32,953 bases of DNA, from NCBI GenBank assembly GCA_017309115.1, contig JAFLEF010000066.1, positions 1-32,953 of the forward strand, read 5' to 3'. This stretch comes from Verrucomicrobiota bacterium. Its GTDB lineage: Bacteria > Verrucomicrobiota > Verrucomicrobiia > Limisphaerales > UBA9464. This document shows, one piece after another, positions 56-13,199 of the stretch; the stretch's first letter is position 1, and every line of letters starts with the position of its first letter. Made by a program: the position numbers and the translations under genes. The notes beneath the pieces are model-generated. The model was not told the DNA's origin. It saw only the letters and a program-made list of their open reading frames with translations, and did no database searches.

Positions 56-124
56 GTTTAACCCACGCTGCACCGGCTCGTCACCCACACTAGACCGCAC
101 ACCGTCGAGCCATAGGGTCTAGGC
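56..124 (+). other. Possible degenerate attC before the macrodomain cassette
   Basis: GTTTAAC at 56-62 fits the inverse core RYYYAAC. The words GGCTCG (about 75-80) and CGAGCC (about 106-111) form a short inverted repeat, and GTCTAGGC at 117-124 could be a decayed right core, similar to the decayed GTCTCGGC that ends the next short attC at 1378. The arms pair poorly outside this word. It may equally be ordinary sequence. Nothing else is recognised in bases 1-55. Confidence 0.3.
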
Positions 125-143
125 GGCTGAACACGCTCCTGCC

Positions 144-713
144 ATACAAACCAAAATCGGCAAGTCAACTCTTTGTCTCGTCACCGGCGACATCGCCAAC
201 CAGGACACCGACGCCGTTGTCACTGCCGCTCATTGGCGGTTGAACAAAGGCAACGGCACAGATGGCACCATTCACACGAAAGGCGGCCCCAAGGTTTACG
301 AGGAGTGCCGCCGCATCGGCGGTTGCCCGATTGGTGATGCGGTTATCACCACAGGAGGCAATCTCAAGGCGAGGCACGTCATCCATGCCGTTGGTCCGGT
401 TTGGCGAGGCGGCGATGAGGGCGAGCCTGAGTTGCTGGCGAGTGCATATCGACGGAGTTTGCAGGTAGCCGCGCAGCACCAGTTGCTTAGCATCTCGATT
501 CCATCCATCTCGACAGGGGCTTTTGTTTATCCCATCCGGCTCGCAGCGCCGATTGCCCTCAAGACCATTATTCAGTTTTTAGAGACGGAGCAGCACAACC
601 TCAACGAGGTTCGGATGGTCCTTTACACTCGTGAGGATGACAAGGCGTACACCATTTTCGTACAAGCCCTTGAGCAGATACTTTCAGAGAGAGTCCCGCA
701 TGGAGCCGCCTAA
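144..713 (+). CDS. Macrodomain protein (ADP-ribose-binding fold), non-standard start
   Basis: The reading frame is open from 123 to the TAA at 711-713 and gives a nearly complete macrodomain: the GDI motif at residues 15-17, the region equivalent to VNAAN...GGGVDGAIH at residues 26-40, a GDA(V)ITTGG segment, HAVGPVW, and the SISTGAFVYP loop. Macrodomains bind or hydrolyse ADP-ribose derivatives. The canonical NAAN is TAAH here and GGGVDG is GNGTDG, so ligand binding or catalysis may be altered. No ATG, GTG or TTG exists in frame before 240, and starting at TTG 240 would delete the first strand and the binding motif. The ATA at 144 sits exactly where an ATG would be expected (ATA-Q-T-K-I-G-K), so either a rare start is used or the start was lost by a G-to-A change. 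First clear cassette of the array; its stop codon lies in the following attC. Confidence 0.75.
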   Translation: MQTKIGKSTLCLVTGDIANQDTDAVVTAAHWRLNKGNGTDGTIHTKGGPKVYEECRRIGGCPIGDAVITTGGNLKARHVIHAVGPVWRGGDEGEPELLASAYRRSLQVAAQHQLLSISIPSISTGAFVYPIRLAAPIALKTIIQFLETEQHNLNEVRMVLYTREDDKAYTIFVQALEQILSERVPHGAA

Positions 714-834
714 CAAAACGGATGCACACGAACCGCCGCGCCGCGGTTCAGTTTCGAATTTTCGGGTCTTTCGGACGCTGGATTCGCAGCCAGCGCCCGG
801 TTCCGGCGGCAGTCGGTGATCCGTGTCGTTCGGC
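708..834 (+). other. attC site, long type (127 bp)
   Basis: Left core GCCTAAC (708-714) contains the macrodomain stop codon; right core GTTCGGC (828-834). The arms pair as ACGGAT, one unpaired G, then CAC, followed by CCGCCG against CGGCGG. The unpaired G in the left arm is typical of the extrahelical bases that orient attC recombination. Closely related in length and internal words to the attC at 3028. Confidence 0.85.
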
Positions 835-843
835 GTAACACGT

Positions 844-1284
844 ATGGCCAGCGCGATATCATTTAAGGATCAGTTCTTCTACGTCTCGAACCAGAGGTTT
901 CACTCCCTGATCGAGTTTGGGATGGAAGTCGGGGAGAAGACTGCCACGACTGACGAGGATAAGTCTTTTGTTTCAGACCTAAGAAAGCGGAGCGACGCCT
1001 TCTACCCGGGTTACGATTTCGCGATCGAGCGAGAGTTTCCTTCACTCATCGAAAGTAAGTTCTGGGCACGGGTGTTCTTCGATTTGGCCCACCTGATTTT
1101 TCGCCGCGAGATTGGGAATCAGGAAGACACCTTCTGGCAGTATTCCGCCGTGGGCGATGCTTACCTTTTCGGTCGCGTAATCACCAGATCGGTTCAGGAG
1201 GAGGAGCAGGCATGGCTCCCCACGACGATGGCCTCCATTGAGACCGATGCCTTTCACAAGAAGGGGGTCAACCTGAGGTTATGA
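844..1284 (+). CDS. Cassette-encoded hypothetical protein, 146 aa
   Basis: I do not recognise the family. The ATG at 844 was chosen over the in-frame GTG at 823 because the latter lies inside the attC, whereas 844 is 9 bases past the right core, the spacing seen for neighbouring cassettes. The product is soluble-looking with no signal peptide or membrane segment, is rich in aromatic residues (FFYVSNQRF near residue 11 and WQYSAVGDAYLFGR near residue 103), and has a mixed-charge middle. The TGA at 1282-1284 is 4 bases before the next attC core. Single-gene cassette; no partner is visible. Many integron cassettes encode such single-domain proteins of unknown function. Confidence 0.75.
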   Translation: MASAISFKDQFFYVSNQRFHSLIEFGMEVGEKTATTDEDKSFVSDLRKRSDAFYPGYDFAIEREFPSLIESKFWARVFFDLAHLIFRREIGNQEDTFWQYSAVGDAYLFGRVITRSVQEEEQAWLPTTMASIETDAFHKKGVNLRL

Positions 1285-1288
1285 GAGC

Positions 1289-1378
1289 CCCGAACAAACC
1301 GGCTGCACCGAACGCCGGGATCGCGTCTTGGTTGACAATCGAACACCATTGGCCCGGCGTCGGTGAGCCGGTCTCGGC
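1289..1378 (+). other. attC site, short type, with damaged right core
   Basis: Left core CCCGAAC (1289-1295). The inner part includes GTTGACAATCGAACACCATT and is nearly the same as the attC at 3940-4031. The right end reads GTCTCGGC where GTTCGGC would be expected, so the cleavage triplet is altered. The site may no longer recombine at its right core. Confidence 0.8.
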
Positions 1379-1384
1379 AGAGCG

Positions 1385-2056
1385 ATGAGCACGGCCACCA
1401 GCAACGATAGCGCCCTTGTCCGGTGGATCGAGTATGTGTTCGACCATGCGGTCACTGACCCGGCGTGGCACTGGGCTCCGGACGCCCCAGAATGGCACGA
1501 GCCTCCTGGCCAGGTAGCCACGCACATCGCCGAGACGTTCGAGCACTCTGGGCATTTGCTAGCCCGCTTCACGGACGCACAACTCAACCAAGGCTTCTGG
1601 TTTCTGGTCAGCAACAGTTGCACCGAGTTCATGTTCTCTCTAGTCGAGCTCGAGCTCCCGGTTTCCGTACGCCTTCGCGCACTCCGGTCGTTTGTCCCGC
1701 TTTTCGAGCAGGTCATGGCAGTGCGGTGTTCCCCACACCTTTCACATCTGGACGAACACGGGGCGAATCCGCTCAATGGCGCGTGCTACATGTGGTGGGA
1801 CATTCTGCCCATCCATGGGTGTCCAGAGGATCCGGCGCGTACTGAATTCGATGTTGAGGTTCTTGCCGTGTTGCGCCGGTTACTATCGATTCCACACGAT
1901 GCTTGTCGGGAGAGCGCTTTGCACGGCATCAGCGAGTGGTCCATCGACTACCCACAGGTCTCCGGGATCGTTGACGACTTTCTCGTCTGTACACCGAGCC
2001 TCCGACCTGAGCTCGCTTCCTACGCGCAGCGAGCCAAAGTCGGGAATGTCCTATGA
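1385..2056 (+). CDS. Cassette-encoded hypothetical protein, 223 aa
   Basis: Unrecognised family. The ATG at 1385 lies 6 bases beyond the attC, preceded by AGAG as a weak ribosome-binding sequence. The protein is soluble, acidic and tryptophan-rich in its first 50 residues (WIEYVFDHAV, WHWAPDAPEWHEPPG), with further predicted helices (EHSGHLLARFTDAQLNQGFW near residue 54; VEVLAVLRRLL near 158). No signal peptide. The helical, repeat-like character could suggest a HEAT-like or immunity-protein-like fold, but this is only an impression. The TGA at 2054-2056 is followed 4 bases later by the next attC core. Single gene in its cassette. Confidence 0.8.
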   Translation: MSTATSNDSALVRWIEYVFDHAVTDPAWHWAPDAPEWHEPPGQVATHIAETFEHSGHLLARFTDAQLNQGFWFLVSNSCTEFMFSLVELELPVSVRLRALRSFVPLFEQVMAVRCSPHLSHLDEHGANPLNGACYMWWDILPIHGCPEDPARTEFDVEVLAVLRRLLSIPHDACRESALHGISEWSIDYPQVSGIVDDFLVCTPSLRPELASYAQRAKVGNVL

Positions 2057-2060
2057 GATC

Positions 2061-2193
2061 GCCGAACAAAAAACAAAATCACTCGAGCGAACAGCCGCCC
2101 CGCTTTTCCGTTCGACACCAGACGGCAATTCGAGAGCGTGTTGCGCGCGCCACCGTTACTGTCGGCGGCTGTCGCTCAGTTCTGTCGTTGGCC
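2061..2193 (+). other. attC site (133 bp)
   Basis: Left core GCCGAAC (2061-2067), right core GTTGGCC (2187-2193). The arm GAGCGA-A-CAGCCGCC pairs with GGCGGCTGTCGCTC, leaving one unpaired A, and a second unpaired C occurs just outside. This is the extrahelical-base pattern expected of a folded attC bottom strand. Confidence 0.85.
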
Positions 2194-2198
2194 TGAAT

Positions 2199-2441
2199 AT
2201 GAAGATATTCGTTGCAACACTTTATCGAAATGGATTTCGGAATGCCGAATCCTTTCCGCTCGGCGCGTTTCGCACCAAAGAGAAGGCAGAAAGCGCTGCA
2301 AAAAGAGAATGCTTTGGGAGAGGTTACAAATACGGGTTTGAAATCTCGGAATTCGAGCTGGACCACTATGACGACGATGAAGACAGACCACTGGATGAAA
2401 TTGTCGTTGCACACGGAAATCCAAATTGGAACGCAGGCTGA
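2199..2441 (+). CDS. Small cassette-encoded acidic protein, 80 aa
   Basis: Begins with an ATG 5 bases after the attC right core and ends in TGA at 2439-2441. The first half has an alternating hydrophobic pattern (MKIFVATLYRNGFR) and the second half is very acidic, with DHYDDDEDRPLDE near residues 57-69. No signal peptide or membrane segment. The layout resembles small phage- or plasmid-type accessory proteins, but I do not recognise the family. A second short ORF overlaps its stop (ATGA at 2439-2443). Confidence 0.65.
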   Translation: MKIFVATLYRNGFRNAESFPLGAFRTKEKAESAAKRECFGRGYKYGFEISEFELDHYDDDEDRPLDEIVVAHGNPNWNAG

Positions 2442-2611
2442 TGAGTGCCAATTTAGTGAAGTGCGGTACAGGAACAATCACCATCGGCGGTTCAGTACGC
2501 GACCAAAACCAAATACCAAGAGCCAACCCCGCTGCTCCAGTGAACGCACCGATTGCGCCTCGGCTTTATTCCGGGCTCACTTGTCGGCGCGTCACTGAGC
2601 AGCGACGTTGA
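2441..2611 (+). CDS. Possible short ORF running through an attC, 56 aa
   Basis: An ATG overlaps the stop codon of the preceding gene, the classic arrangement for translational coupling. The first 26 codons (MSANLVKCGTGTITIGG onward) precede the attC; the remaining 30 are the attC itself, and the TGA falls in the right core. It could be a real second gene of the cassette, a peptide tail borrowed from the attC, or a chance open frame in 80 bases of non-coding sequence. Confidence 0.25.
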   Translation: MSANLVKCGTGTITIGGSVRDQNQIPRANPAAPVNAPIAPRLYSGLTCRRVTEQRR

Positions 2612-2613
2612 CC
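2521..2613 (+). other. attC site (93 bp) with clear extrahelical base
   Basis: Left core AGCCAAC (2521-2527), right core GTTGACC (2607-2613). GCTGCT-C-CAGTGA in the left arm pairs with TCACTGAGCAGC in the right arm, leaving a single unpaired C. This is one of the cleanest folds in the array. Confidence 0.85.
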
Positions 2614-2617
2614 GACT

Positions 2618-3007
2618 ATGCTCGCAACGCTTGCAAATCCCTCGCCCCTCTTCGCACTCATTGGTGCCTGGGACTGGGTCGTCATTCTGGCTGCGGCCAT
2701 TATGATTTTCGCGGCGCGTTTACTCCCGGAGCTTGCCCGCGGACTGCGTAAAGGAATCTCCGAGTTTCTCAAGGAATTGGAGAATGTGTCGCACGGCGTA
2801 GGGAGGAGTTTCGGTGGGATCTATGGAAAGTCCGCTGCCCAGGCGCTGACCCCCAACAACCAAACAGCCGAGCTCTACAATCCAGCTGTGTTTCATAGAA
2901 AGAATCCGGCCGACCAGCCTATTTGGCGAAGGCGACTCCGTCACTGGGGCCGCTCGTGGCGCGCGATAATGCGTTGGTTATTGAAGCGATTGGGTACGAA
3001 AGCTTAA
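2618..3007 (+). CDS. TatA/TatE-like membrane protein in a cassette, 129 aa
   Basis: TatA-type proteins form the pore-related component of the twin-arginine system, which exports folded proteins. Here residues 16-35 (IGAWDWVVILAAAIMIFAAR) form the short membrane helix, followed by LPELARGLRKGISEFLKEL (about 36-55), the amphipathic helix with the conserved LPE-AR-L-KGI-EF pattern. The family's Phe-Gly hinge is Phe-Ala here. The C-terminal 70 residues are strongly basic (RRRLRHWGRSWRAIMRWLLKR) and not typical of TatA. The ATG at 2618 is 5 bases after the attC. No tatB or tatC is near, so it may assist or modify the host Tat system, or be a membrane-active protein that reuses the TatA shape. Confidence 0.7.
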   Translation: MLATLANPSPLFALIGAWDWVVILAAAIMIFAARLLPELARGLRKGISEFLKELENVSHGVGRSFGGIYGKSAAQALTPNNQTAELYNPAVFHRKNPADQPIWRRRLRHWGRSWRAIMRWLLKRLGTKA

Positions 3008-3027
3008 AGCTCAGTGAAAACAAAGTC

Positions 3028-3154
3028 GGCCAACAAAATCGCTGCACACGAACCGCCACCACCCGTTTCGATTCCGGGCTCGGCGGATCATAGGACACTG
3101 GATTCGCTGCCAGTGCCCGGCTCCGGCGGCGGTCGGTGAGCTCTGACGTTGGGT
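3028..3154 (+). other. attC site, long type (127 bp)
   Basis: Left core GGCCAAC (3028-3034), right core GTTGGGT (3148-3154), a perfect GTTRRRY. GCT-G-CAC pairs with GTGAGC, leaving one unpaired G, then CGCC pairs further in. The internal words GCACACGAACCGCC and GGTCGGTGA are shared with the attC at 708, so the two belong to one subtype. Confidence 0.88.
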
Positions 3155-3170
3155 GACAATCGAACGCGCT

Positions 3171-3599
3171 ATGAAAACTCAAGGCAGCATTGCGATCGCA
3201 TCCCTGTTCATCTCAGTCGCGGGCTTACAGGCCAGGGACATTGAAAAGGGCAAGCCGGCAGCGCCGCCGAACGTGAAGTCAGTTGCCGGCAGCTATTACT
3301 GCGGCGACGGTCTTGGCTACAACGTGACACTCACGCTGAAGGAGAACGGCACGTACTCCGCCGAGTGGCACGGTTGCCTCGGCAAGTATGGAGATGCCTC
3401 GGGAAGCTGGAAGCTGTCCGACAAGCAGATAGCGCTTATCCCGAAAACGGAGCGAGACATGATGAAGGGCCACCTGAAAACGTTGGATGTTTTGGAGTAC
3501 AAGGGCGGCTGGGTTTTCGTTCGCGCAGATGATAGAGATTTTTACGATAAGCACGGTGTTTCCCGTTACTCGTGCTTCCAAAAACGAGACCAACAATGA
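3171..3599 (+). CDS. Cassette-encoded secreted protein, 142 aa
   Basis: An N-terminal signal peptide (MKTQGSIAIASLFISVAGLQA, residues 1-21) precedes a small domain with three cysteines and a beta-rich pattern (GYNVTLTLKENGTYSAEWHG; ASGSWKLSDKQIALIPK), resembling lipocalin- or META-like small periplasmic domains. ATG 3171 was chosen over an in-frame GTG at 3153 because 3153 is inside the attC core. The TGA at 3597-3599 is followed 10 bases later by the next attC. Probably periplasmic or secreted; function unknown. Confidence 0.75.
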   Translation: MKTQGSIAIASLFISVAGLQARDIEKGKPAAPPNVKSVAGSYYCGDGLGYNVTLTLKENGTYSAEWHGCLGKYGDASGSWKLSDKQIALIPKTERDMMKGHLKTLDVLEYKGGWVFVRADDRDFYDKHGVSRYSCFQKRDQQ

Positions 3600-3609
3600 C
3601 AACAACACC

Positions 3610-3695
3610 GCCCAACAAGCCAGATGCAGTGAACCCGGCGATCGCGCTCCGATTGACAATCGAGGATCAGGGGCGCCAGGTCTGAAGCGTTGGGC
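3610..3695 (+). other. attC site (86 bp), perfect cores
   Basis: Left core GCCCAAC (3610-3616) and right core GTTGGGC (3689-3695) are exact reverse complements and both fit the consensus. The inner part contains GATTGACAATCGA as in the short attC type. Shortest of the well-formed sites. Confidence 0.9.
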
Positions 3696-3702
3696 GTAAA
3701 CA

Positions 3703-3936
3703 ATGTCCCATCCCCTTTACAGCTTATTACGCAGCTTGGAAGACGCGCACATCCATTTCACCCTGGCTCGCAATCGTGAGGACACTGTTCTTGTGACGAT
3801 CACTCTGGTCGGTGAGCGTGTGGAGGTTGACGTTTTTGACGATGGACACATGGAAGTATCGCGTTTCCCAGGTACCGAAAACATCGTCGGCGGTGAAGAG
3901 TTGATCCATGACATCATCCAGGACAATCGAGATTAG
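3703..3936 (+). CDS. Small conserved cassette protein, 77 aa
   Basis: The sequence MSHPLYSLLRSLEDAHIHF at the start and the central VGERVEVDVFDDGHMEVSRF (about residues 36-55) resemble a group of small uncharacterised proteins that I recall from integron cassettes and plasmids; this recollection is not a database result. The fold would be alpha-beta with a helix then a four-strand sheet. No signal peptide, no catalytic motif. The ATG is 7 bases after the attC and the TAG at 3934-3936 is 3 bases before the next. Function unknown; small antitoxin or immunity roles are possible but unsupported. Confidence 0.8.
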   Translation: MSHPLYSLLRSLEDAHIHFTLARNREDTVLVTITLVGERVEVDVFDDGHMEVSRFPGTENIVGGEELIHDIIQDNRD

Positions 3937-3939
3937 ATT

Positions 3940-4031
3940 GCCCAACAAGCCGGCTGCACTGAACACCGGGATCGCGTCTCGGTTGGCAATCGAACACCAT
4001 TGGCCCGGCGTCGGTGATCCGGAGCGTTAAT
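3940..4031 (+). other. attC site, short type (92 bp)
   Basis: Left core GCCCAAC (3940-3946), right core GTTAATC (4025-4031). Arms: CCGG-CTG-CAC against GTGATCCGG and ACCGGG against CCCGGC. Nearly identical to the attC at 1289 through the centre, but with an intact right core. Confidence 0.9.
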
Positions 4032-4034
4032 CCT

Positions 4035-4658
4035 ATGAATCCCGAGAACAGCGAGTATCCCGAGAAGGATTTCCCTTGGACGTTCTATTTTAACGGGGAG
4101 GCCATGCCCAAATGGGCAGCATGCTGGAGCATGGCTGGTGTGGGCAGTTTTGTTCATCCAGAAAGAGACGCGTGCGAGGACGTATCCGAGAGGGACATTT
4201 ACATCATCATGTGCACGATTGATCACATTGGGGTGGAGAGCGCGGACCCAGACATTTTCCTGTACGCCGTTCAAGAGGTGCTTTACCTGCTCTTGTACCA
4301 CAACGATCGGGCACTCGCCTCGATTTCGGAACATCCGCGCGGGGGGAGTTCAGCGCGGGAGATTTTCACCGGGTTGGTGGGGGGCGCTTTCCGCATGCGC
4401 CAACTCGTGCAAGATCAGCGCTGCGCGTTCTGGACTACGGGATATGAGGCAGATAATGACAAGCTGAAGGAATCTATGCGCCGCGCCGCTCTTCCACCTG
4501 CGTCACAGGACTCCGCGCCACCACCGCACTTGGCTCGTATGCGCTCAATGGCCCGGTCTTACCGTGAGCAGCAGATCAGCCGTCTTCATCGCCTAGCTCA
4601 GTCTGGGCGCCTCGACAAGGCCACAAGAAAGCATTTGAATGAACTACGGATGGACTAA
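4035..4658 (+). CDS. Cassette-encoded hypothetical protein, 207 aa
   Basis: Unrecognised. The ATG at 4035 is 3 bases after the attC; the alternative in-frame start at 4014 lies inside the site. Residues 1-45 are aromatic-rich (FPWTFYFNGEAMPKWAACW), the middle is helical (DIFLYAVQEVLYLLLYHNDR near residue 76), and the last 45 residues form a basic helical tail (MARSYREQQISRLHRLAQSG) that may bind nucleic acid or a partner. No signal peptide. The TAA at 4656-4658 lies within the left core of the next attC, a sign that gene and site have moved together. Confidence 0.8.
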   Translation: MNPENSEYPEKDFPWTFYFNGEAMPKWAACWSMAGVGSFVHPERDACEDVSERDIYIIMCTIDHIGVESADPDIFLYAVQEVLYLLLYHNDRALASISEHPRGGSSAREIFTGLVGGAFRMRQLVQDQRCAFWTTGYEADNDKLKESMRRAALPPASQDSAPPPHLARMRSMARSYREQQISRLHRLAQSGRLDKATRKHLNELRMD

Positions 4659-4748
4659 CCAGATCACTGGACCGAACGCGGGCGGGCCACGTCAGCTTCC
4701 TATTCGGACGCCGCTGGCCGCCCGCGTCGGCCAGTTCAGTCGTTAGGT
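4653..4748 (+). other. attC site (96 bp)
   Basis: Left core GACTAAC (4653-4659) contains the stop codon of the preceding gene; right core GTTAGGT (4742-4748) is a perfect GTTRRRY. Long arms GCGGGCGGGCCA against TGGCCGCCCGC, with CACTGG against CCAGT further out, make a strong imperfect hairpin. Confidence 0.9.
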
Positions 4749-4788
4749 GACTAGTGCGCGTCTCGTGAAAATGAACCCGAATGAAGTC
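4749..4788 (+). other. Near-empty cassette body (40 bp)
   Basis: Only 40 bases separate two attC sites. The one open frame is ATG at 4771 to the TAA at 4792-4794, encoding seven residues (MNPNEVA), with the stop inside the next left core as for neighbouring genes. It is either a cassette without a gene or the last scrap of a deleted one. Confidence 0.6.
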
Positions 4789-4949
4789 GCCTAACTCGCG
4801 CGCTTCGCTCGAACCGCCACCGCCCGTTTCGGTTTCGAGCTCGCCGGATTATCGGACCCCGGATTCGCTGCCGCCGCCCGCATCCAGCGGCAGTCGGCGA
4901 ATCAACGTCAGAGGCGGCTGCCTCCCGTCGCTGACCTTGATCGTTATGC
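4789..4949 (+). other. Damaged or hybrid attC site
   Basis: Left core GCCTAAC (4789-4795) and left-arm words (GAACCGCCACCGCCCG) match the long attC type at 3028. The matching right arm ends near 4905 with GTCAGAG (4907-4913), a decayed core. A second tail resembling the last 24 bases of another attC follows (about 4926-4949), ending GTTATGC. Two part-sites may have been joined, or the first core may have decayed beside an old junction. Confidence 0.6.
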
Positions 4950-5482: not shown

Positions 5483-5663
5483 TCCTTCCTCCCCGACAAC
5501 TTGGTCCTTCTCAGGCACCAGCCAGCCGATACGGTCCGGACATGCAGACAGTCAGATGCGGCCCAGTTTCGGAACCCGCCCCAGCCTCCACTTCGCCGCG
5601 ATCGTTGGCGTTGATTGGGCGCTTCCGACGACCGTCAGTGAGCTCTGAAATGAATACACTCTT

Positions 5664-6257
5664 ATGCGTCCACCAAAAGCCCTTCGTCTGGCCATTGGGG
5701 CTTTGCTCCTGATCGCCGCGGCCCTGGCGCTCATAGCCGGTTGGTATGCCACGTGGGTTTCGCTCACTCTCCCGCCCACGTTCACATCAACTGCCCTCGT
5801 CGCGCCCCCCGGGACGCAATCGGACGTCGCTCAGGAAGCGGAGAGAATCCGATCTCACGAAATCCTGCTGCCCGTCGTCACCAAACTGAATCTCCAACGG
5901 GAGTACTCCGCCGAGCTTCACGCGCCACGGGAGTTGTCGGCCGAGGCGGCGTCTCAGCTCCTCTTGAACCGCACCACCATCAGACCCATCCGAAACCGGC
6001 AACTCGTCGCAATCGTCCACTCCGCCAACGACCCATCCTTGGCCGCCAAAATCGCGAACGCGATCGCTGATTCGTACATCGCCTCGACCGCGAGTGGATT
6101 AGCGGGGACTGCCACACCAGCCACACGCCTCCTCGAACCCGCCCAACCTGCGTCCCATCCCGACCGGGCGAAGCGACTATTGCCGACCACGATTGCTCTG
6201 GTGGCTGCCGGGCTCTTCGCAGTCGGCGGTTTCCTGGCCATACTTCGTTGGAAATAG
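5664..6257 (+). CDS. Wzz-like polysaccharide chain-length domain protein
   Basis: Proteins with a Wzz domain sit in the inner membrane with a large periplasmic part and help set polysaccharide chain length. Residues 9-31 (LAIGALLLIAAALALIAGWY) are the first membrane helix. The periplasmic part contains the family-like TSTALVAPP (about 42-50), a helix with RIRSHEILLPVVTKLNL (about 62-78) and the closing pattern DPSLAAKIANAIADSYIAS (about 123-141). A second helix occurs at about 174-193 (LLPTTIALVAAGLFAVGGFL). At 197 residues it lacks the C-terminal tyrosine kinase of fused forms and is shorter than classic Wzz (about 300-370). No glycosyltransferases are adjacent. The ATG is at 5664 without a clear Shine-Dalgarno. 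Confidence 0.7.
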   Translation: MRPPKALRLAIGALLLIAAALALIAGWYATWVSLTLPPTFTSTALVAPPGTQSDVAQEAERIRSHEILLPVVTKLNLQREYSAELHAPRELSAEAASQLLLNRTTIRPIRNRQLVAIVHSANDPSLAAKIANAIADSYIASTASGLAGTATPATRLLEPAQPASHPDRAKRLLPTTIALVAAGLFAVGGFLAILRWK

Positions 6258-8986: not shown

Positions 8987-10117
8987 TCAAGGAAACTCCA
9001 GCCGGTATGCCGCCCAGGGCTCCTCAGCCCCCACCGCCACTTCCCGGACTACCGGCACGCCGGTGCCAATCTCCAAGGGGCCGTCCTGCCAGGTCAGCAG
9101 ATCGCGCGAATGCTGGAGTCGAAAGCTGACTCCGGCCGGGACCTGAAGCTCGAGGGAAAATCGACCCGGAGGCTGCGTCGCCGGGACCCGCAGAAAGCCA
9201 TCCACCACGGTCAACACCGCCGGGGCGCTGGTCACCACGCGCTCGCCGTCCCCCACCACCACGGTATACACCCCAGCCTGCGCCGGAGTCACACTGGCAA
9301 TGGCCAGCGTGTCATTGGTCCGGATGGGAAGTACGACGTTGCCGCGCCACCATTGGTAGGTGAAAGGACCCGGACCCGCCGCCACCACCCGAAGCGTGGC
9401 CGGAGAACCTCGACCCACTCGAACGCTTTGCGGCTGCTCCACCAGGACCGGAGGGGCAGGCGCGGCAAACGGCGTGGCGATCCGGAGATTGTCAAAGTCC
9501 ACCTCCGCCACGTTCACCCGAAATCCCAGCACCTTCATCTGATCCAGAACACCCGCCGCAAAGGGCGACGTCTCGGCCAGGTATTGGTATCCGTTGGTCC
9601 CGGTGAGCTTGATTAGCAACCGATCGGAATCCAGCGGACGCGTCACGTGCAATCGATAGCGGGCCGAGTTCGCCGGCATCCAACTGGTCCCGAGGACACT
9701 GGTCCATTGGCCGGTTCCGGGGTTGAACCATTGAGCGCCCGCCTCGACATCCTGACGGTTCCGATTGCCGATGTTCACCTGCATCTGGACGCCCGAACCG
9801 AGGGAAGGAAAGAAGGACAACCCGGCCAATCCCCGGGTCAGGCCGTCGGCCAGCGGACGCCGAAAGTGCAGATCCACTTCCAAACGCCACGAACGCCCCA
9901 ACTCCACATCGTTTCTTTGGGCGAACAGGTCCGGGATGGATTCCCCGCGGAGGACGCGGTTTTGGTCGGCCTGTTCCACCTGCAGCCAACCGCTGGGCAA
10001 CGTCCAGGAAGCGAGGTTGGAACTGAAGGTATCGACAAAGTCGATCCCGCGCACCGCCGGCATCCCGGTCAGGCAGAAGAGAAGAAGCCACCAGCGGCAG
10101 TGTCTTGAAGAAGGCAT
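8987..10117 (-). CDS. Secreted protein with Ig-like domain, 376 aa
   Basis: The start was set at the ATG whose complement is at 10115-10117 because it gives a clean signal peptide (MPSSRHCRWWLLLFCLTGMP, cleavage near residue 24); the longer frame to 10201 adds 28 unlikely residues. Residues about 25-220 form a beta-sandwich region resembling concanavalin/LamG-like domains (VDTFSSNLASWTLPSGWLQ at the start, RLLIKLTGTNGYQYLAE later, closing with DFDNLRIA). An Ig-like domain follows at about 230-310 (PPVLVEQPQSVRVGRG then FTYQWWRGN and AQAGVYTVVV). The last part (FRLQHSRDLLTWQDGP) matches the C-terminal module often seen in verrucomicrobial secreted proteins. The only minus-strand gene here; it diverges from the exosortase-type gene. 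Confidence 0.8.
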   Translation of the reverse strand: MPSSRHCRWWLLLFCLTGMPAVRGIDFVDTFSSNLASWTLPSGWLQVEQADQNRVLRGESIPDLFAQRNDVELGRSWRLEVDLHFRRPLADGLTRGLAGLSFFPSLGSGVQMQVNIGNRNRQDVEAGAQWFNPGTGQWTSVLGTSWMPANSARYRLHVTRPLDSDRLLIKLTGTNGYQYLAETSPFAAGVLDQMKVLGFRVNVAEVDFDNLRIATPFAAPAPPVLVEQPQSVRVGRGSPATLRVVAAGPGPFTYQWWRGNVVLPIRTNDTLAIASVTPAQAGVYTVVVGDGERVVTSAPAVLTVVDGFLRVPATQPPGRFSLELQVPAGVSFRLQHSRDLLTWQDGPLEIGTGVPVVREVAVGAEEPWAAYRLEFP

Positions 10118-10348
10118 GAAAATCTGAGTGTCGTGTAACGTCCGCAACAGTCCCTTGCGAGAAATCGCGCGCGTGGGCCATCCCGAACCGAAGCCGAACA
10201 AAATCAGAAGTCCCCACGCCGGGCAAGAAGCCCTCTCAGCAGCGCAGTCTCCCGCGCCTTTTGCACGACGGATTCGCGGGTCGTTGACGGAGTTCGTAAG
10301 ACCTGCGCTAGACTTCTCGATGGTTGGTTACCCCCCACCGAACATCAT

Positions 10349-11113
10349 ATGAGAATGCCCCACCACCTTGTTTCACTCGCCCTTTCTGCCTTCACCCTGA
10401 CCGCGGTTTCCGGCGTTGCCACCCACGCCGCGGTCGAGAAGCCCGTCCCTGCCATCTCACTTTGGGTCGATGGCAAGTCGTACGAAGGCCCGCGCATCCA
10501 GGAGATCATCGGAGAAGACGGCAAACTGCGCTACGGCGTGGAGAGCTTCGTCCTCGAGACGCCTGACTTCCTCATCACCATGAGCTCCCTCATGGATCCG
10601 GATCCGTCGATCGCCTACGGCCTCGCCGTCACTGACTTCGGCGCTCCGAGCACGTTCGCCTTTCTGTTTTCCACACCCATTGTTCCGACGGGATTTCCGA
10701 ATCAGGTGAATGCCAGTCTGGTCGGCGGCTTGACCGACTTCACCGGCGACGGAGTCAGCCTGACTCCCACGGGAGCCTTCGTCCAAACCAGCAGTCTGGG
10801 CCTACCCCTGACTGGCATGGGCGTGGATGTCGGCGCGGCCTTCGCGGCCGGCCCGGGAAATCCGGGAGCGTTCTATGCCTATGGACCGTATGCCGCCGGC
10901 CCGATTGCCGGACCTGGACCCGGCCCTTGGACCGTGTTGCAAGCCATGGCGGATTTCAAACTGAGTGGGAACGGGGATATCGCCGCCCTGACCGGTTTTG
11001 CCCAAATCGTCACGGCCCCGGTCCCGGAAGCGGGAACAGGGGGAACCGTGCTCCTATTGGGAACCCTCGCGGCCGGCTACTGGCGCCGCCATCGGATTTC
11101 CCAGAACAAGTAA
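10349..11113 (+). CDS. Exosortase-sorted (PEP/VPxxG-CTERM type) secreted protein, 254 aa
   Basis: Signal peptide at residues 1-28 (MRMPHHLVSLALSAFTLTAV...HA). The last 30 residues have the three-part sorting tail: a VPEAG motif, a hydrophobic helix (GTVLLLGTLAAGYW) and an Arg-rich end (RRHR). This is the layout of exosortase/PEP-CTERM substrates, close to the VPDSG form known from Verrucomicrobia. The rest is Gly/Pro/Ala-rich and of unknown function. Start is ATG 10349 or 10355. No exosortase gene is in the window. A strong terminator follows. Confidence 0.85.
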   Translation: MRMPHHLVSLALSAFTLTAVSGVATHAAVEKPVPAISLWVDGKSYEGPRIQEIIGEDGKLRYGVESFVLETPDFLITMSSLMDPDPSIAYGLAVTDFGAPSTFAFLFSTPIVPTGFPNQVNASLVGGLTDFTGDGVSLTPTGAFVQTSSLGLPLTGMGVDVGAAFAAGPGNPGAFYAYGPYAAGPIAGPGPGPWTVLQAMADFKLSGNGDIAALTGFAQIVTAPVPEAGTGGTVLLLGTLAAGYWRRHRISQNK

Positions 11114-11142
11114 GCTTTGCCTAACCCGCAGCCTTCCGCACC

Positions 11143-11171
11143 GGCCGGTCGATCCTTCGACCGGCCTTTTT
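11143..11171 (+). terminator. Intrinsic terminator
   Basis: A perfect 10-bp stem GGCCGGTCGA/TCGACCGGCC with loop TCCT, followed by TTTTT. It ends the exosortase-substrate gene about 30 bases after its stop codon. Confidence 0.93.
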
Positions 11172-11231
11172 CGTCTCTACGCCCTTCGTTTCGGGCACGG
11201 GAAAGTCTTCCGACAACGGCCCGGGCCTGCC

Positions 11232-11243
11232 TAGGCTCACGTC
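11232..11243 (+). promoter_or_regulatory. Possible -10 box directly before the start codon
   Basis: TAGGCT at 11232-11237 lies 6 bases before the ATG at 11244, with no Shine-Dalgarno between. If it acts as a -10 element, the transcript would start at or near the ATG. The -35 region is weak, so this rests mainly on the same arrangement before 19588 and 27360. Confidence 0.3.
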
Positions 11244-13199
11244 ATGTTCCTCCGCGAATGGTTCGACGACAACTCGACCGAACGCTTCTCCATCCGAACC
11301 CGGGCCGCTGGACCCGCCGGCAAACTTCCCCTTACCGAGGAGCAACTGCGCGAGGCTCCCAGCGGGGATCTGTTCGGGTTGACCCAAAATGCGGGCATGG
11401 GCTGGGAACCGAGTGAAGTGGGCCGCGACGCCTTTCTCATTCTCAGCACCCTGGGCGGACTGCGCGCGCCCGATGGCAAGCCCATCGCGCTCGGCTATCA
11501 CACCGGTCACTGGGAACTGGGACTGCAAGTCAAAGCCGCCGCCGAGGAACTGCGCCGACTGAAAACGGTTCCCTTCGCGGGTTATGTGTCCGATCCCTGC
11601 GACGGCCGCACCCAAGGCACCGTCGGCATGTTCGATTCCCTGCCCTACCGCAATGACGCCGCGATCGTGTTCCGGCGGCTCATCCGTTCCCTGCCCACGC
11701 GCCGCGGCGTGCTCGGCGTGGCGACCTGCGACAAGGGACTTCCCGCCATGCTCATGGCCCTCGCCGGCACGCCGAACCAGCCGACGATCCTCGTTCCCGG
11801 GGGCGTCACGCTGCCGCCGGAAACCGGGGAGGACGCCGGCAAAGTGCAAACCATCGGCGCGCGCTTCAGTCATGGAATGCTGACGCTCGACGAAGCGGCG
11901 GAACTCGGCTGCCGCGCCTGCGCCAGTCCCGGCGGCGGATGTCAGTTTCTGGGAACCGCCGCCACGGCCCAGGTGGTCGCCGAAGCCCTGGGCTTGGCCC
12001 TGCCGCATTCGGCCCTCGCTCCCAGCGGCGAACCCATCTGGCGCGATCTGGCCATCCAGTCCGCGCGGGCGCTCGTGGACCTCGCGCAACGCCGTCTCAC
12101 CACCCGCGACGTCCTGACCGACGCGAGCATTCGCAACGCCATGACGGTGCATGCCGCGTTTGGCGGTTCGACCAACTTGTTACTGCACATTCCCGCCATT
12201 GCCCACGCTGCCGGACTTCGCCGACCCACCGTGGACGACTGGACGTTGATCAACCGTCGCACGCCCCGACTGGTCAGTGTGCTGCCCAACGGTCCCATTC
12301 ATCATCCCACGGTCCGCGTGTTCCTCGCCGGTGGGGTTCCGGAGGTCATGCTACACCTTCGCGCCCTCGGACTGCTGGAGTTGGACGCCCCCACCGTGGC
12401 CGGACAATCTTGGGGCGAAGTCCTCGCCGCCTGGGAACAAGGACCCCGTCGCACCCGTTTCCGGCAGGCGCTTCAAGAACTCGACGGCGTGGATCCCGAC
12501 GACGTCATCCTGCCTCCCGAACGAGCTCGGGAACGCGGACTCACCAGCACCGTCACCTTCCCGCGCGGCAACTTGGCCCCCGAAGGTTCCGTCATTAAAT
12601 CCACCTCCATCGACCCCAGCGTGGTCGACGCCGATGGCGTGTACCGCCACGAAGGTCCGGCGCGAATCTTCACCCGGGAACGCGCCGCCATCGCCGCCAT
12701 CAAGCGCGGGGAAATCAAGGCCGGCGACGTGTTGGTGCTGATGGGCGCCGGTCCCCTGGGAACCGGCATGGAAGAGACCTATCAGCTCACCAGCGCCCTG
12801 AAACATCTACCCTTCGGCAAACATGTCGCGCTCATCACGGACGCGCGGTTCAGCGGGGTCAGCACCGGCGCCTGCCTCGGCCATGTCGGTCCCGAAGCGC
12901 TGGCCGGCGGACCCATCGGACGCCTGCGCGCGGGCGATCGAATCCGACTCGAGATCAATCGTACCACGCTCAGCGGCTCGGTGAATTTGGTTGGGGTTGA
13001 AGGACGAGACCTCACCCCGGAGGAAGCCGCGACCCTGCTGGCGGAACGCCCGATGCACCCAGACCTCGCGCCGCATCCCGATCTCCCCGACGACACCCGG
13101 CTGTGGGGTGCGCTCCAAGCGGTCGGCGGCGGCACGTGGGGTGGTTGTGTCTACGATGTGAACTCCATCGTGGAACGGCTCACCGCCCGCGTTCCCTGA
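11244..13199 (+). CDS. yjhG: D-xylonate dehydratase, YjhG/YagF type, 651 aa
   Basis: Full-length match, from memory, to the YjhG/YagF branch of the IlvD/Edd dehydratases (655 residues in E. coli), starting with the characteristic [16 protein letters not shown] (about residues 39-54). These cytoplasmic enzymes dehydrate sugar acids, here D-xylonate to 2-dehydro-3-deoxy-D-pentonate, with an Fe-S cluster. Cluster ligands are expected in [10 protein letters not shown] (about residues 115-124), ATCDKGLPA (about 161-169) and [11 protein letters not shown]. Further conserved blocks: [56 protein letters not shown] and [11 protein letters not shown] at the end. No aldolase, xylose dehydrogenase or transporter is adjacent, so its pathway partners must be elsewhere. 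Confidence 0.92.

Follow-up and report, generated by a model that had tools for sequence, protein, structure and literature searches.

The contig analyzed here, C75 of a Verrucomicrobiota draft genome (bases 1–32953, all of which we call the window), opens with small genes that alternate with palindromes resembling attC, which raises the question of whether these form the cassette array of a chromosomal integron and, if so, where the integrase and attI that serve it are located. The genome comprises 7,529,670 bases in 111 contigs and is 95.3% complete with 3.69% contamination. Our results suggest that the array in the window is the 3′ portion of a longer one and belongs to a chromosomal integron whose attI platforms were copied genome-wide and whose cassettes were loaded in trans, likely by the integrase IntI of contig C3; we put the probability of this reading at about 0.62. 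A preliminary description of the window had proposed a chromosomal integron cassette array, and that proposal holds: a model trained on another contig recovers the attC sites, and a full-length IntI with an adjacent attI is present on C3 of the same genome. Since the window starts at the contig end, the 5′ part of its array is missing.

The attC sites of the window

Two covariance models were used in the search. R1 was trained on ten attC of contig C3 only, with all nine window sites held out, and R2 on 20 short-type attC, with the window sites at 1289, 3610, and 3940 left out of training. R1 finds nine attC in the window, all on the + strand and spanning 708–4915, whose R″/L″...L′/R′ boxes we delineated by hand:

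708..834, + strand: attC 1, long type, 127 nt; R1 101.2 bits, E = 7.5e-22, held out
1289..1379, + strand: attC 2, short type, degenerate R′ box; R1 17.8 bits, E = 0.02; R2 46.2 bits, E = 2.2e-10, held out; fold z −4.9
2061..2193, + strand: attC 3; R1 62.5 bits, E = 7.9e-13
2521..2613, + strand: attC 4, short type; R1 30 bits, E = 3e-5; R2 69.3 bits, in the R2 training set
3028..3154, + strand: attC 5, long type; R1 121.9 bits, E = 1.2e-26
3610..3695, + strand: attC 6, short type; R1 19.1 bits, E = 0.01; R2 26.8 bits, E = 1.6e-4, held out
3940..4032, + strand: attC 7, short type; R1 16.2 bits, E = 0.049; R2 49.4 bits, E = 2.4e-11, held out
4653..4748, + strand: attC 8, short type; R1 59.7 bits, E = 3.5e-12; R2 96.7 bits, in the R2 training set; fold z −5.6
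4789..4915, + strand: attC 9, long type, degenerate R′ box, the final site of the array with model support; R1 75.8 bits, E = 6.3e-16; fold z +0.3

Six of the R1 E-values lie between 1.2e-26 and 3e-5, and the three weak sites (0.01, 0.02, and 0.049 for 3610, 1289, and 3940) are recovered by R2 at 1.6e-4, 2.2e-10, and 2.4e-11, respectively. The claim of nine attC-like sites is thus borne out by a model trained on another contig, with R2 backing the three weak ones. The attC scan that had been suggested as a check gave these nine matches at 708–4915 and none at E < 0.3 by R1 elsewhere in the window; in the other 28 kb, the top R1 match reaches 12.8 bits (E = 0.3) and R2 has none at E up to 1. 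Searched against Rfam at gathering thresholds, the window gave no match. The left edge assigned to the array, at 56, did not survive: neither R1 (up to E = 10) nor R2 (up to E = 1) has a match there, and 56–142 folds like its shuffles (z = −0.18). The site placed there is probably not a real attC, and one of the nine model-supported sites may be absent from the nine first proposed.

The pairing is corroborated by covariation in the R2 alignment, where 10 of 22 pairs are changed on both sides (51 cells), whereas slid controls give no more than 2. By hand delineation, all nine window attC have R and L boxes, and the stems of most contain single unpaired bases, which is the attC anatomy of a chromosomal integron. 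DNA folding gave a mixed result, with z ≤ −1.7 in five sites (708, 1289, 2521, 3028, and 4653) and z from −0.9 to +0.3 in the remaining four, and single-strand DNA folding alone is convincing for just five of the nine. Chance palindromes can be eliminated as the source of the attC matches by the held-out R1 test, the clustering of the sites, and the orientation of the open reading frames (ORFs) between them. We note that attC 8 and attC 9 are separated by a gene-free gap of 40 bases (4749–4788), either an empty cassette or a tandem attC, and that past the last attC, positions 5624–5648 match the right end of the long-type attC at 84% (repeat family D3); this stretch, without an R1 match, is perhaps a decayed attC.

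The integrase of C3 and the attI-like leaders

With nine attC and no integrase-model match on the contig, C75 classifies as a cluster of attC sites lacking an integron integrase (CALIN), although the lack of intI is possibly an assembly effect because the contig begins inside the array. A full-length integron integrase is encoded at C3:5670–6764, outside the window, and scores 417 bits with TIGR02249 against a cutoff of 265. It is the sole one of 20 TIGR02249 matches in the assembly above the cutoff, and none of 14 control genomes pass it. The protein is a tyrosine recombinase with the IntI-specific insert, and it aligns with IntI4 of V. cholerae (PDB 2a3v) across residues 44–363 of 364. With the narrower model NF011946 it scores 324.7 bits, below the 435-bit cutoff.

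Sequence comparison places a putative attI beside intI at C3:5384–5642, which copies on C81 and C108 match up to ..ATCAACTG^TT before they diverge. The C3 leader, which is divergent to intI and contains dyads, ends ..GGTGAATCAACTG^TT; from there to the contig end lie ten attC with model support, along with an eleventh, weak match of 18.5 bits. A near-perfect palindrome of ~27 bases (TGTCGG..CCGACA) is found in the attI-A leader at L009:5593–5623, with similar dyads before the crossover; it is possibly an operator or an IntI site.

Twelve attI-like leaders are present in the genome, in two core families of six each. Family A comprises C3, C81, and C108, plus C86, C70, and C10, which share a core of ~45–50 bases, and family B comprises C36, C80, C95, C46b, and two in C46a. 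A BLAST search of the genome recovered the six B leaders, three full A leaders, and the cores at C10 and C86; local search added C70, as well as a degenerate A-like piece in C46a. In DNA alignments, the leaders are homologous within A and within B across 45–250 nt up to the G^TT crossover, where homology breaks off and different cassettes follow. Mean identity per 100 bases drops from 0.66 upstream to 0.35 downstream in A and from 0.75 to 0.37 in B (15 pairs each; random, 0.33). Eleven of the twelve leaders sit 51–364 bases upstream of a model-supported attC; the exception is C10, where the attC of the cassette looks cut short and has no model match. The same coding-sequence 3′ end (..HDYRRLPYAESGY-like, translated by eye) precedes several copies of attI-B and an attI-A-like remnant, as seen at L133:5380–5690, at L121:4030–4345 and 11060–11380, and in L138 (C80).

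Truncated forms of IntI are also present: a 142-aa N-terminal stub that adjoins attI-B in C46b (TIGR02249, 45.6 bits), a 5′ piece in C108, and an internal piece of 79 residues, 75% identical to the C3 IntI, which stands alone near a contig start (G000:C29:416–655). There is no attC match in C29:1–8000. Two further tyrosine recombinases, of 305 aa in C46 (TIGR02249, 169.9 bits) and 307 aa in C44 (101.3 bits), were considered as a second integrase and are not counted as IntI because they fall below the cutoff of 265 and, by ORF reading, lie beside transposon-like genes. The former is one of several transposon-like genes inside the C46b array (L122:5026–7184 and 9734–10885), along with ORFs that are presumably IS91-like transposases. 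The latter and a 690-aa ORF, which we take to be a serine recombinase, stand directly before the first cassette of C44 (L132:14200–17221).

Dispersed arrays and their probable loading in trans

Scanning of the whole genome gave at least 124 matches with R1 at E up to 10 and at least 94 with R2 at E up to 1, weak ones included (150 candidates scored in each case). Merged local scans of 30 sources gave ~155 distinct attC in 28 clusters, 142 of them at ≥30 bits and 129 at ≥40 bits, a count that leaves out most matches under ~22 bits and includes the training sites of the models. Clusters with two or more sites (21 of 28) hold 148 of the 155 attC, and spacing is mostly 400–650 bases. In 127 inter-attC intervals, the longest ORF is on the attC strand in 95, on the opposite strand in 27, and tied in 5, consistent with cassettes that mostly share one orientation. 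Palindromes throughout the noncassette parts of the genome would have spoken against an integron; sites do exist outside the window, but within cassette arrays, with the ORF orientation given above.

Nine clusters have a 3′ boundary with the 5′ side off the contig (C92, C67, C54, C75, C68, C57, C72, C17, and C20), and nine have both sides within the contig (C46 twice, C44, C36, C95, C16, C90, C94, and C33). There are therefore at least 18 separate arrays, or 17 without C44, where the 5′ side is a transposon-like stretch. Past the 3′ boundaries, nine contigs continue for 17–221 kb of other sequence (at least 28 kb for C75, the window), and the 235 kb C46 has three attI-B copies, divided between two attC clusters ~68 kb apart. 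An ordinary single superintegron split by the assembler, with the remainder as plain CALINs, is rejected as barely credible on these counts: many arrays do stop <1 kb short of a contig end, and C44, C54, and C72 have first cassettes that are 97–98% alike, as for repeat-induced breaks, but one array has one 3′ boundary, not nine with long flanks, and would not explain C46.

Cassettes recur within and between arrays. Using a threshold of ≥85% identity over ≥240 bases, leaders excluded, we obtained nine shared blocks, two of which are single cassettes with both ends cut at the crossover. One 486-nt cassette is first at the attI-B of C46b and recurs, 100% identical, deeper in that array; recombination at this platform therefore seems recent. 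A cassette of the C3 array, which bears intI and an A platform, is also first at an attI-B of C46a, with 93% identity. Such junctions would be consistent with IntI-catalyzed recombination.

Relatives of this genome show how widely such elements occur. Among 38 other relatives, IntI homologues (E up to 1e-40) are found in 15 (genus 0 of 4, family 11 of 19, order 4 of 15), and 31 have R2 matches at E up to 0.01, with 1 to 45 each (107 candidates scored per genome); the 7 relatives without a match support a low false-positive rate. By BLAST, attI-B is in 3 of 39 genomes (this one, G004, and G032 over 35 bases) and attI-A likewise in 3 of 39 (this one, and 25-base matches in G001 and G002), and the leaders are therefore not a general sequence of the order. 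The anchor genes htpG, recR, and metG are present in 16, 22, and 23 of 23 genomes, this one included, and in the 18 stretches of relatives read around these genes (190 kb), R2 has no match at E ≤ 0.1, which points to the lack of an array at the anchors. For IntI itself, the five first-listed relatives in named genomes, among the best 80 of 346, are Verrucomicrobia metagenome-assembled genomes (MAGs), 58–67% identical. The intI locus of G018, a genome of the same family, is identical (101/101 40-mers) to L014, an "uncultured Verrucomicrobia bacterium", which confirms the Verrucomicrobiota origin that had been called probable.

Taken from these sequence comparisons, the system is probably a multiplatform chromosomal integron served in trans. 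Copies of the attI platform, some with a 5′ stub of intI, would have spread through the genome; they would have lost, or never had, an intact integrase, yet gone on receiving circular cassettes. The C3 IntI is the likely enzyme: cassettes would be excised as folded single-strand (bottom-strand) attC and inserted in trans at any attI copy, at G^TT, so that one cassette pool would be common to all arrays. A cassette promoter may have been kept in those copies that retain the 5′ end of intI. Two relatives of like design, G004 and G028 (described below), also speak for platform copying, since attI-B in the former and an IntI stub with an attI-like leader in the latter are each present more than once.

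Several observations weigh against this reading. Service in trans is itself something we infer from sequence, and in a draft of 111 contigs with nine arrays lacking their 5′ end, further intI could be missing or collapsed. Five multisite clusters with the 5′ side in the contig (C90, C16, C94, C33, and C44) have no recognized attI, nor, by motif scan, have the single sites at C90:91334, C26, and C95:12628. Over 100 nt, the leaders of C86, C70, and C10 are only 0.51–0.60 identical to those of C3, C81, and C108. A consensus scan of the C3 attI found no cassette promoter and one promoter-like site, which faces intI. Of the nine shared blocks, only five have their right end, and two their left end, 10 nt or less from a crossover; a random position would be that near with a chance of 3.9% for one sequence (either of two was accepted). 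The other four have no crossover at their ends, and one of these (C20/C46b), which occupies intervals of 2 kb and in C46b is next to a transposase-like gene, is perhaps not a cassette. A precise empty site in relatives was not found, with synteny on the anchor side only.

The main rival, which we consider unlikely, is that the genome is a graveyard of several complete integrons, or copies of one, which were acquired over time and each had an intI that has since decayed; attI and arrays would be relics, the shared cassettes old, and no service in trans would take place now. The truncated IntI pieces at C46b, C108, and C29 fit such decay, as does the difference between families A and B, as if from two integrases. 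Two relatives with arrays and attI in which no IntI was detected also favor it. G004 (same genus, 93% complete) has three attI-B copies with a different sequence after each and same-strand attC; one of these copies is beside a 37-residue IntI-stub piece, 62% identical to the C46b stub. G028 (another family of the same order, 98% complete) lacks a detected IntI despite 45 R2 attC matches over many contigs and has three near-identical N-terminal IntI stubs, the third at a contig end, two of which can be read into an attI-like leader with an identity of 0.99 before the cut and 0.17 after. However, the G028 stubs have the same tail after the break, and therefore the truncated module was copied as such. 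In our genome, moreover, one intact IntI is left, the 100% identical cassette at the C46b attI-B suggests recent recombination, and a B platform holds a cassette that is also in the C3 (A) array.

A broader proposal, which we regard as tentative, is that in an order of Verrucomicrobiota the integron has turned into a genome-wide network in which the attI platform, in some cases with a 5′ intI stub, copies itself around the chromosome as a unit and one integrase, the cell's own or from outside, serves all copies in trans.

It is quite improbable that the dispersed arrays go back to cassettes inserted off target, at attG, instead of at copies of attI. Insertion at attG has been described (Loot 2024, as cited in PMC12444791 and PMC12901181), and the five multisite clusters without a recognized attI would suit it. 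Both cases have cassettes landing away from the main attI, but here the cassettes sit at homologous copies of attI in which dyads precede the cut, and the homology of the twelve leaders within A and B over 45–250 nt to the crossover would not be expected of random targets. More improbable still is a mixed bin, with arrays from several strains or species. The genome is a draft with 3.69% contamination and several attC-rich contigs are small (9–46 kb), but three attI-B platforms are on C46 alone, arrays are also in contigs of 188, 211, and 225 kb, and the same attC types recur across contigs.

Cassette genes and known integrons

Turning to the cargo of the array in the window, eight + strand genes lie before or between the attC sites, and the alternation of same-strand small genes with attC that had been described holds for most:

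150..713, + strand: cassette gene 1, macro-domain protein, O-acetyl-ADP-ribose deacetylase-like; Pfam Macro, E = 2.5e-35; NCBIfam matches all below their cutoffs
844..1284, + strand: cassette gene 2; Pfam, none at E up to 0.01; start codon hand-picked
1385..2056, + strand: cassette gene 3; Pfam, none at E up to 0.01
2199..2441, + strand: cassette gene 4, DUF7336; Pfam E = 2.3e-7; start codon hand-picked
2618..3007, + strand: cassette gene 5, TatA/B/E-like; Pfam E = 1.9e-9
3171..3599, + strand: cassette gene 6; Pfam, none; cassette 3122–3695 has a 93% DNA-identical relative in the C68 array
3703..3936, + strand: cassette gene 7; Pfam, none at E up to 0.01
4035..4658, + strand: cassette gene 8; Pfam, none at E up to 0.01

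Pfam thus names three of the eight (Macro, DUF7336, and TatA_B_E) and leaves the other five without a match at E ≤ 0.01; no resistance family is among the Pfam matches of the eight at that threshold. The macro-domain gene has no ATG, GTG, or TTG upstream of the conserved domain, and its first listed start, TTG 240, is inside the domain. Past the array, the gene at 5664–6257 has a weak match to Wzz (E = 0.0022, below the Pfam cutoff).

Arrays in this phylum had been called less described, but integrons in Verrucomicrobiota are known and already listed in print (PMC8618304). This genome resembles the sedentary chromosomal integrons (the Vibrio superintegron type; see also PMC8618304) in its intI, adjacent attI, many similar same-strand attC, and mostly unknown cargo; it differs in that it has not one locus but at least 17–18 arrays and twelve attI-like copies. 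Arrays away from intI are shared with the Xanthomonas CALINs, reported at seven chromosomal loci among species with >10 genomes (PMC12444791), whereas here several arrays start at attI copies. Many attC over many draft contigs are also a feature of attC-rich archaeal MAGs, with up to 107 attC on >18 contigs (PMC9668308); their attI is beside intI, and duplicated attI platforms are not mentioned in the available text. Clusters of attC away from intI have been proposed as degraded integrons (PMC9024848), and the term "attI-like" occurs in an integron paper (PMC10127599). The novelty is the duplicated attI platforms, not the window array. In the literature searched we found no description of such platforms, which does not prove their absence in print.

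An integron is usually pictured as an integrase with one attI and a single array. Were attI platforms to multiply and be loaded in trans, one enzyme would serve many cassette outlets in a genome. Standard software (IntegronFinder) limits its search for attI to class I (PMC9024848), and CALINs may therefore hide working attI if platforms behave in this way. The twelve natural attI variants in one genome make the requirements of attI a testable question. Should the proposal of a genome-wide network be true, cassettes would circulate among many loci with different neighbors and promoters.

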